Shown here piece after piece: positions 7,437 to 58,082 of a stretch of 64,000 nt of DNA (its first letter is position 1; every line of letters starts with the position of its first letter). Origin of the DNA: Deltaproteobacteria bacterium (GTDB taxonomy: Bacteria; Desulfobacterota; Desulfobaccia; Desulfobaccales; Desulfobaccaceae); contig JAFDGA010000004.1 of the NCBI GenBank assembly GCA_019309545.1, positions 62,001 through 126,000 of the forward strand, written 5' to 3'. The position numbers and the translations under genes are program-made. The notes beneath the pieces are model-generated. The model did not search any database and was not told where the DNA came from. It saw only the letters and a program-made list of their open reading frames with translations.

Positions 7437-8088
7437 TCTCCAAGTCTTGGAGGTCAGTCAAAGAAATCATCTCCACGGTGTGGTGCTCCAGATCCAGGAT
7501 GGCAAAACTGAAGGTGGGATAGCGGCCCTCCTCCATGGTAAAGGCCCCGGGGACGATCAAATAAACGGTGTCCAGGGCCAGTTGCAGGCATTCTCGCCAC
7601 GGTCGAAACAGATAAGGCCGGGCAACGCTATGGATGTAGAGCAGATTGTTGAGGGTGCGGCCGAATCGGGTCACACAGGGGGTATGGGTGTGCCCATGAC
7701 AGATCAGCAAGGGGGGGCGGCCTAACGGGCGGGCCTGTTTATAGGCCTTAATCTGGGGTTTAAAATAATCGAAGGCAGTGGCCCGGGTGTGGGCCAAAAA
7801 AATGCGGTTATTAAGGGCCAGAGCCCGGTTGGTCAGGGTCGCCCGCGGATGATCAGCGCCATCCACATCATAAACCCAATAAAGCTCATTTCCGGGTGCC
7901 AGGTCCAACCACCAGTCAAACGGCTCCGCCTCACAATCCCCCAAACAGGCCAGACGCTGGATGTGGTGACGGCGGAATAATTCAAATAACCGCGGCAGAC
8001 CGGCCTCATATCCATGAGTATCGGAAACCAATGCCAGAATTGGCCGATTACCTGAATTAACCGCCGTCAATTCGCGTCTGGCAGTCAA
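7387..8088 (-). CDS. metallophosphoesterase-like protein (atypical metal site)
   Basis: Calcineurin-like phosphoesterase fold, 233 residues. ALVSDTHG supplies the first Asp and His, LGDCE the second Asp, and CHGHTHTP the C-terminal histidines. The expected GNHD/GNCD motif is replaced by VDGADH, so the usual metal-ligating Asn is absent. It may be a low-activity or diverged enzyme; the substrate is unknown. The start codon is TTG at 8088, and other TTG codons just downstream are possible. The last 50 bp overlap the NUDIX gene in opposite orientation. A 52-residue gene lies 24 bp upstream on the same strand. Confidence 0.8.
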   Translation of the reverse strand: MTARRELTAVNSGNRPILALVSDTHGYEAGLPRLFELFRRHHIQRLACLGDCEAEPFDWWLDLAPGNELYWVYDVDGADHPRATLTNRALALNNRIFLAHTRATAFDYFKPQIKAYKQARPLGRPPLLICHGHTHTPCVTRFGRTLNNLLYIHSVARPYLFRPWRECLQLALDTVYLIVPGAFTMEEGRYPTFSFAILDLEHHTVEMISLTDLQDLETMQLACAPAQPEPGGR

Positions 8089-56267: not shown

Positions 56268-56296
56268 TTGACAGTCCCCCTCTAGCGTGTTAAAAA
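56268..56296 (+). promoter_or_regulatory. promoter of the cobalamin riboswitch transcript
   Basis: Perfect TTGACA at 56268-56273, a 17-base spacer and TAAAAA at 56291-56296. The expected start point, about 56303, coincides with the 5' end of the aptamer's closing stem, so the RNA is nearly leaderless before the aptamer. Confidence 0.6.
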
Positions 56297-56304
56297 GGGA
56301 CAAC

Positions 56305-56463
56305 TTACAGGCCCCGAGGGGTTAAAAGGGAAGACGGTGCAAATCCGTCGCGGTCCCGCCGCTGTAACCGGGGACGAAACCAGCATCAAGCCACTGGCCT
56401 GATAGAGGGGTTGGGAAGGCGCTGGAAGTAGAAAGAGCCGGGAGCCAGAAGACCTGCCTGTAA
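56305..56463 (+). ncRNA. cobalamin (B12) riboswitch aptamer
   Basis: The closing stem pairs TTACAGG (56305-56311) with CCTGTAA (56457-56463). Inside are the family's invariant blocks in order: gaggggttaaaagggaa, ggtgcaaatccgtcgcggtc, ccgctgtaaccggggacga, the B12 box core agccactg, gggaaggcgctgga and gagccgggagccagaagacc. The family senses adenosyl- or other cobalamins. No gene lies on this strand for 1.2 kb, so it does not control a conventional downstream operon here. Confidence 0.93.
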
Positions 56464-56536
56464 TAAATAAGCGAAGCAAGCTGCCGTCGGAGCCGCCCCT
56501 TCGTAATGGTTGAGGACCAAGAAAACTGGGTGCAAT

Positions 56537-56573
56537 CCTCAATTCTCAGCAACGAGAATTGAGGTTTTTTTTT
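56537..56573 (+). terminator. intrinsic terminator of the riboswitch expression platform
   Basis: CCTCAATTCTC (56537-56547), loop agcaac, perfect complement GAGAATTGAGG (56554-56564), then nine T's. It lies 74 bases after the aptamer, the usual place for a cobalamin-controlled transcription terminator, and gives a transcript of about 270 nt. Confidence 0.9.
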
Positions 56574-56658
56574 AGTTGAACAAAGGCTGATAAACCTGGC
56601 ACCGCCAAGAAATGATTTTAATCCTGGGGCACTTCCGCCCTCTCCTTATCCTCGGCGC

Positions 56659-56734
56659 CCTGTCGGCCCGGCTCATCCTTTCACCAATAACCCTGCTGCA
56701 GGGCAAGTGATGGCGGATGAGCCGGGCTGACAGG
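56659..56734. repeat. 20-bp inverted repeat with nested hairpin
   Basis: The left arm CCTGTCGGCCCGGCTCATCC (56659-56678) and the right arm GGATGAGCCGGGCTGACAGG (56715-56734) pair at 19 of 20 positions, the other being G-T. The 36-base loop holds a second hairpin, CCCTG-ctg-CAGGG (about 56691-56703). There is no T-run. It lies between the riboswitch terminator and the methyltransferase 3' end. Confidence 0.75.
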
Positions 56735-56800
56735 ATTTTCCCTCCAAGCCGTTTTCCAGAAGGTGCTTTTGCTGGCAAGAGGTCTAAATTCTGGGGCTGA

Positions 56801-57454
56801 TTAAGGGCGTTGGGGTCTGATTTCCGCCCGCCAGAAGATGTGATGGACTTTTTCTATTTGCCAAAAAGGTGCTCCGGCTTGCTGACAGGCCCATTCAAAA
56901 TCTTGAGCCCGGAGAGCGGAGTGGAGGGCCACAAGCCGTATGGCCGTGAAGGTCAGATAAAAACTCTGATGCTGCTGGCGGGCAAAGGCGCGAATCTCCA
57001 CAATCCCGGCGTTCCGGTCTAATTCATATAACCAGGCCCGCCCCTCGGGTTTGAGAACCCGCAACAATTCTTGCAGCCCCAGGCTCGGGTTTCTCCAATG
57101 ATGATAACTCATCGTGGCCACCGCCAGATCAAAGACTTGGGCCGGAAAGGGCAAAGCGGTGGCAGTGGCGGCCAGCACTGCCACCCGATCACTAAGGTGG
57201 GCTTGGAGCAGACGACGGTGCGCCAGAGTAACCATTGGCGGGGACAGATCCAAACCCAGGGCCCGGATATCAGTCCTTTGGGTGGCCAACCCCAGCAGGA
57301 GCCGGCCCGGCCCTGTACCGATATCCAGCAGCAAACCACCGGGGGGTAGCGCCTTCTGCAAATCTTCCCCCAACAGGCGGTATAATCGCCGAAAATAAGA
57401 ATTATCACTAATCCAGTCATAATAATAGGCAAAAGGACCAGGAATCGCTTCCAT
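56801..57454 (-). CDS. SAM-dependent methyltransferase (UbiE/UbiG-like fold)
   Basis: 217 residues. Motif I is LLLDIGTGPGRLLLGLA (about residue 40), motif II LGLDLSPPMVTLA, and motif III ATALPFPAQVFDLAVATMSYHHW with LQELLRVLKPEGR. The substrate is unknown. The ATG at 57454 (ggggat 7 bases upstream, start MEAIPGPFAYYYDW) is preferred; the open frame to 57631 adds residues without homology. Its 3' end faces the riboswitch transcript, so read-through from there would be antisense to this gene. Confidence 0.86.
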   Translation of the reverse strand: MEAIPGPFAYYYDWISDNSYFRRLYRLLGEDLQKALPPGGLLLDIGTGPGRLLLGLATQRTDIRALGLDLSPPMVTLAHRRLLQAHLSDRVAVLAATATALPFPAQVFDLAVATMSYHHWRNPSLGLQELLRVLKPEGRAWLYELDRNAGIVEIRAFARQQHQSFYLTFTAIRLVALHSALRAQDFEWACQQAGAPFWQIEKVHHIFWRAEIRPQRP

Positions 57455-57636
57455 ATCGGTATCCCCAGGCTGGTCTGCACCATTCAGCGAGTTTGATGGT
57501 TGTAAGTTTTCCTGGTTTATATCACATCTTCCCGAAAAAAGCTGGCCCACCGCCCTGGGCCTTAGGTTAGAATCCTGGCTTTCCCTAGACAAGGAATGGA
57601 GAAGGCCCGGGCATCTGCATATCTTAAACAAATTCC

Positions 57637-57782: not shown

Positions 57783-58082
57783 ATGCCACTGACCAAGGCA
57801 GCCCTGGTGCAGGTACTTTTTGAGAAGGAAATTTTGCCTAAGGCAGAGGCCGCCCGCGCCGTTGATAGTGTATTCGGTCTGATCAAACAGGCCTTGGCCT
57901 CTGGAGACGATGTGCTCATCAGTGGTTTTGGGAAATGGACGGTGAAAGACAAAAAAGAACGCCGGGGCCGCAACCCTCAGACCGGTCAGGATCTAACCAT
58001 AAATGCGCGGCGGGTAGTGACTTTTAAGGCATCCGGGGTTCTGCGCCGCTTAATCAGCGAACCACCCGCCAAACCATCATAA
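57783..58082 (+). CDS. integration host factor/HU-family DNA-bending protein
   Basis: 99 residues, normal for the family. It starts MPLTKAALVQVLFEKE. The beta-arm carries GFGKWTVKDKKERRGRNPQT with the conserved Gly-Arg-Asn-Pro tip that intercalates DNA, and the C-terminal helix follows. The IHF-alpha-like tip suggests a sequence-tolerant architectural protein. An aaggag site precedes the ATG. The tRNA-Gln gene lies 27 bp after the stop. Confidence 0.93.
   Translation: MPLTKAALVQVLFEKEILPKAEAARAVDSVFGLIKQALASGDDVLISGFGKWTVKDKKERRGRNPQTGQDLTINARRVVTFKASGVLRRLISEPPAKPS

Follow-up and report, generated by a model that had tools for sequence, protein, structure and literature searches.

A free-standing cobalamin riboswitch unit of the Desulfobacca group and its predicted trans pairing with the acsC ribosome-binding site

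What does a complete cobalamin riboswitch control when no gene follows it? Riboswitches are usually read as cis regulators, and gene-less ones tend to be dismissed as orphans or relics. The locus studied here lies in the window, the whole stretch of 64,000 nucleotides that was analysed, in a genome called G000 below. An initial annotation had described it as a self-contained B12 aptamer with its own promoter and terminator. We compared it with its counterparts in related genomes, mostly MAGs, and consider it probable that the locus encodes a free-standing B12-gated small RNA whose low-B12 read-through form pairs in trans with the acsC ribosome-binding site and represses it.

Structure of the locus

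Up to its first terminator (T1), the unit has the following features.

56268-56295, plus strand: promoter, TTGACA (56268-56273), a 16-nt spacer and an imperfect -10, TTAAAA (56290-56295); from the sequence and the orthologous loci
56292-56475, plus strand: cobalamin riboswitch aptamer; RF00174, 123.3 bits, E = 1.6e-31, model positions 1-189 (full)
56508-56544, plus strand: antiterminator, GGUUGAGGA (56508-56516) with UCCUCAAUU (56536-56544); from the sequence, a shared motif and fold energies
56537-56573, plus strand: intrinsic terminator T1, an 11-bp stem (56537-56564) followed by T9 (56565-56573); seen in 12 of 12 loci

Covariance-model scoring bears out the full B12 aptamer, which by sequence and structure belongs to RF00174 (gathering score 31.5 bits). 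The promoter, the terminator and the neighbouring genes are also as first described. A consensus scan did not list the promoter pair; its TTGACA stands unchanged at 10 of the 12 orthologous loci, G006 and G011 have TTGACG, and G001 and G002 have TTGACA...TATAAT. In the window the promoter ends at the first bases of the aptamer. The next gene on the same strand encodes an HU-like DNA-binding protein (57783, PF00216), and between it and the riboswitch a methyltransferase gene lies on the minus strand (56801-57460, PF08241).

The antiterminator was absent from the initial annotation. Its pairing overlaps T1, the two are mutually exclusive, and the same motif stands behind other cobalamin aptamers of the order, which makes the region a transcription-terminating expression platform. 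Since this motif is common to ordinary cobalamin riboswitches of the order, conservation of the T1 region alone was rejected as proof of a small RNA.

Distribution among relatives

The unit consists of promoter, aptamer, antiterminator/T1, about 90 nt and a second terminator hairpin (T2). It is present in all seven genomes of the family and in five others of the order (the Desulfobacca group). The 12 loci belong to g1 (G000, G001, G002), g2 (G003-G006), g3 (G011, G025), g5 (G010) and g9 (G017, G021). A DNA search of the relatives found the aptamer-to-T1 stretch in G001, G002, G003-G006, G010, G017, G021 and G025, and the G011 unit was recognised through its T1 region and adjoining methyltransferase. 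Ten contigs came out of an exact-pattern scan of GTDB genomes; their labels are Desulfobacca, Syntrophobacterales or Deltaproteobacteria MAGs. Ten of the 12 loci are gene-less: those of all seven family genomes, of G011 and G025 in g3, and of G010 in g5.

Several neighbours recur. Downstream of the unit, an HU-like gene and a tRNA-Gln gene are found throughout the family except in G004, where the unit is intact in a different setting, and the methyltransferase is found in g1 and g3. Upstream, a gene resembling damage-control phosphatases occurs in G017, G021, G025 and G007. The downstream genes elsewhere, named by resemblance, are MvhD-like in G004, an HMA-type protein in g3, queE in G010 and btuF-like in g9. 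These common neighbours tie the loci to one another and make vertical inheritance the best reading for the unit. In G010 (L064, C7), genes resembling both queE and queC come after the riboswitch unit.

These arrangements bear on two readings in which the target is a neighbour. The riboswitch could control the distant HU-like gene at 57783 by read-through of both terminators, and an HU-like gene does follow in g1 and in three g2 genomes. This is hardly credible, however, as T1 and T2 both precede the gene, it has its own promoter-like sequence in g2, and other genes stand downstream in G004, g3, G010 and g9. The initial annotation proposed instead that low-B12 read-through runs antisense to the methyltransferase. 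The convergent arrangement in g1 and g3 would allow this, but it does not accompany the RNA everywhere: the g2 loci have the RNA and lack the methyltransferase. T2 also lies between riboswitch and methyltransferase, and conservation ends at T2. We regard an antisense role against this gene as very improbable.

Selection on the RNA

Between G000 and G001, 4-fold sites of neighbouring genes are 52-55% identical, as against 87% for the aptamer and 89% for T1. Between g1 and g2 the corresponding values are 37-49%, 71-78% and 79-83%. The window aptamer is 71-87% identical to its family orthologues (outside the closest pair of this genome). Aptamers of the unit score a median of 122 bits, compared with 115 for 123 other cobalamin riboswitches of the order. 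Judged by these comparisons, the RNA is under purifying selection, including the segment past T1 described below. A free-standing riboswitch-controlled non-coding RNA therefore has strong comparative support: the core idea of the initial annotation is backed by the ten gene-less orthologues, the intact aptamers and the purifying selection, while its proposed methyltransferase target is unsupported.

The other possibility raised at the outset was a relic, in which the riboswitch formerly controlled a gene that has since been deleted and the remainder is decaying. A B12-related gene downstream in relatives would point that way, and one was found. A btuF-like gene, whose best NCBIfam match is BtuF at a score under the cut-off, begins within the unit region of G017 and G021, and its first codons align with window positions 56620-56680. 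A decaying relic is nonetheless improbable, because promoter, aptamer, T1 and T2 persist in all ten gene-less units at divergences that leave 4-fold sites only about 40-50% identical. The aptamers score no lower than others of the order, T2 carries paired changes, and at least three similar losses would be required for three lineages to arrive at one common end point. Two histories can be drawn. In the first, which is the simpler, the gene-less form would be ancestral and btuF would have joined it in g9; in the second, btuF would have been lost at least three times, each time leaving the same residue.

The region beyond the first terminator

Three further features lie past T1.

56626-56641, plus strand: small hairpin GGGGC-ACUUCC-GCCCU between T1 and T2; from folds, missing in genus g2
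56640-56656, plus strand: antisense segment CUCUCCUUAUCCUCGGC, complement of the acsC ribosome-binding site GCCAUGGAUAAGGAGAG; from the site match, duplexes, permutation and background leaders
56659-56739, plus strand: second terminator hairpin T2, a 20-bp stem (arms 56659-56678 and 56715-56734) followed by AUUUU; from folds at 12 of 12 loci

The initial annotation had mentioned a hairpin element here. The element exists, and what had been missed is that it is a conserved second terminator hairpin. T2 can be folded at each of the 12 loci; 93% of its arm cells are paired, and one position alternates between TA, CG and GC pairs. Its U-run is short in the window genome (AUUUU) and weak in G001 and G002 (AAUCUUU).

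In the comparison of G000 with G001, the segment 56620-56661 has 90% identity, compared with 54% for the spacer next to it and 15% for the T2 loop (p = 4e-7 when the segment is tested against 54%). The segment would be present only in read-through RNA. No conserved start codon or reading frame was found in it across the orthologous loci compared. A small ORF between T1 and T2 was considered and rejected: its ATG occurs only in the window genome, G001 and G002 have no start codon, and g2 has a frameshift. Within the predicted folds the antisense segment is more unpaired than its surroundings.

Two kinds of match to T2 were set aside. A match of the hairpin to Rfam mir-4436 is attributed to chance (21.5 bits, gathering score 74), and T2-like 24-mers in G012, G014, G016, G027 and G028 are not beside a riboswitch and apparently lie in coding sequence.

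One further genome, G007, carries a natural truncation of the unit (L230, C36, about 7886-8062), where the phosphatase gene and the 5' half of the aptamer are followed by another gene. T1, the antisense segment and T2 are missing there, and the acsC leader of G007 has a 1-nt insertion (GCCATGGATTAAGGAGAG).

Predicted pairing with the acsC leader

The complement of CUCUCCUUAUCC, the core of the antisense segment, recurs at the acsC ribosome-binding site in all three g1 genomes. The product of acsC is the large subunit of the corrinoid iron-sulfur protein (NF003195, 617 bits, cut-off 306), and the gene lies within a CODH/ACS gene cluster, whose other genes were named by order and resemblance. 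Throughout the order, acsC leaders have GCCAUGGAUAAGGAGAG or a sequence close to it. A search of the genus for 14-mer complements gave no more hits than a reversed control, and acsC was chosen after looking, from this search without excess over control. Anti-Shine-Dalgarno complementarity by itself was therefore rejected as evidence.

The case for acsC comes instead from comparison of each RNA with the leader of its own genome. The riboswitch segment pairs in register with the cognate acsC leader over 14-19 bp in 10 of 10 comparisons, and where one partner has changed the other has changed with it. The mRNA of G004 has GCCAUAA and its RNA UUAUGGC (GG to AA, CC to UU); that of G005 has GCCAAGG and its RNA CUUGGC (U to A, A to U); and G010 has matched insertions, GGAUAUGGACAAGG in the mRNA and CCUUCAUCCUAUCC in the RNA. 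For each of these three genomes the cognate leader scores best of the four leader types. When leaders were permuted among RNAs, the observed assignment gave p = 0.0006 for the ten genomes and ranked 12 of 5040 for the seven distinct ones (range of p 0.0006-0.002), in a test that treats related genomes as exchangeable. Full-length duplex energies of segment and leader did not separate cognate from non-cognate pairs, because the GC-rich flanks dominate; the core comparison alone separated them. In a ranking of 252 leaders that have a ribosome-binding site, the acsC leader comes out on top in five genomes, second in four and fourth in one. At the level of sequence, then, the RNA has what is expected of a trans-encoded base-pairing RNA: conserved complementarity to a distant mRNA, with covariation.

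A different mode of action was weighed against this. The locus may be a conserved B12-gated non-coding RNA whose read-through part has a protein partner, as Rli55/EutX has in EutV, or a different RNA partner, the acsC match being a by-product of anti-Shine-Dalgarno resemblance. Conservation speaks for RNA function rather than for a mechanism, the two flanking hairpins are conserved, and pyrimidine-rich segments pair with many ribosome-binding sites. The complementarity, however, reaches past the Shine-Dalgarno part to GCCAUGG and follows the changes there, and acsC takes ranks 1-4 among leaders that all have ribosome-binding sites. The two hairpins are present, but their hexaloops do not fit the A1/G4 pattern that we take to mark ANTAR-protein sites. 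This other mode seems unlikely to us, if still deserving of serious attention.

Pairing with acsC is also to be read beside the genomes in which one partner occurs alone. Leaders of acsC carry GCCAUGGAUAAGGAGAG or a close variant in genera where the unit was not detected (g4, g6, g7, g10, g11; L133, L137-L139, L142, L146-L152), and the motif is therefore not kept for this RNA alone. Conversely, G003 keeps the unit though acsB and acsC are not in its assembly.

In G002 (L159, C136, about 2084-2618), a cobalamin riboswitch is followed directly by codons resembling acsC from residue 27 onwards, with no start codon. This junction may be a real fusion, contamination or a chimeric contig.

A second site in genus g9

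The exact 17-mer of the segment occurs once more in the whole genome of G017, at the start of the gene for the B12-binding subunit of methylmalonyl-CoA mutase. Pairing at this site extends over 19 bp in G017 and 18 of 19 in G021, and is much weaker outside g9, where methylmalonyl-CoA mutase is unsupported as a general target.

The g9 loci (L017:1820-2740, L045:449-1360) have the antisense segment and a T2-like hairpin inside the first btuF-like codons. This sequence would have to meet coding, hairpin and pairing demands at once.

Proposed mechanism

From the unit, its conservation, the complementarity and the co-changes, we infer that the locus is transcribed, responds to B12 and represses translation, as follows. 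With B12 bound, transcription would stop at T1, and the RNA, about 270 nt long, would be inert. Under B12 scarcity the antiterminator would form and RNA polymerase would read on to T2, giving an RNA of about 435 nt that exposes the pyrimidine-rich CUCUCCUUAUCC..GGC between two hairpins. The exposed segment would then act in trans, pairing with GCCAUGGAUAAGGAGAG where ribosomes bind the acsC mRNA and blocking translation. The logic would be one of sparing, with less of a B12-consuming corrinoid protein made when the cofactor is short. In g9, where the segment doubles as codons of the btuF-like signal region, one transcript would serve as both transporter mRNA and antisense RNA.

In more general terms, a cobalamin riboswitch would here directly gate a trans-encoded small RNA that silences mRNAs of B12-dependent proteins, acsC throughout and the small subunit of methylmalonyl-CoA mutase in g9, with sensor and effector in one RNA. 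On balance we lean towards this wider statement.

Such an arrangement would tie CODH/ACS directly to the supply of B12, and these acetate oxidisers are thought to depend on that pathway. The reading also gives specific predictions, including which genome's RNA fits which genome's target.

Relation to known systems

Riboswitch-controlled RNAs that act in trans are established by Rli55/EutX, AspocR and SreA (PMC5821096, PMC8079631). These exceptions to the cis rule were found in Listeria and Enterococcus; the present locus, if read correctly, would be a case in anaerobic sulfate reducers.

Rli55 of Listeria and EutX of Enterococcus end at the riboswitch terminator as a short form with B12, and without B12 form a long RNA with an active 3' part (PMC5821096). 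The unit resembles them in being free-standing, with no cis-regulated gene at the ten gene-less orthologous loci, and in its predicted short form with B12 and long form without. Unlike theirs, whose 3' hairpins sequester EutV, its read-through part has an mRNA-complementary segment, and no EutV-type site was recognised in it. AspocR of Listeria is a read-through RNA made under B12 scarcity and thought to base-pair in trans on a B12-related gene (PMC8079631), as is proposed here. AspocR, however, has its gene opposite that of its target, pocR, and a length of about 1,400 nt, whereas the RNA described here is about 435 nt and its target, a B12-binding enzyme subunit, is encoded elsewhere in the genome. 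SreA of Listeria is a SAM riboswitch acting in trans on prfA mRNA (PMC8079631). In both, a riboswitch-derived RNA pairs with an mRNA leader, here by prediction. The active form of SreA is the terminated, ligand-bound one, and SreA has a cis target as well, while here the read-through form would act.

RyhB-type small RNAs turn off proteins that use a cofactor when that cofactor is scarce, and RyhB is controlled by the Fur protein. The sparing logic would be the same, but here the RNA would contain its own sensor. Within the parts of the open-licence literature covered by our search, no description was found of a cobalamin riboswitch that controls a base-pairing RNA encoded in trans and directed against a B12-dependent enzyme. 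As far as that search reaches, a riboswitch deciding whether an RNA carries its antisense segment would be a new mode.

Other cobalamin riboswitches in the order

The genome G004 has three cobalamin riboswitches within 6 kb, and three within 6 kb have been described in Desulfobacca acetoxidans (PMC9481103). A near-identical element, GGAYCAAGnAAnCUGGGUGCAAUCC, lies between aptamer and terminator in many cobalamin riboswitches of the order (leaders L001, L003, L010, L013-L024), and its loop is more conserved than the antiterminator alone would need. The window genome also contains a degenerate cobalamin riboswitch match (39.6 bits, model positions 47-167; L004, C48:840-964), near a gene for a small secreted-type protein.
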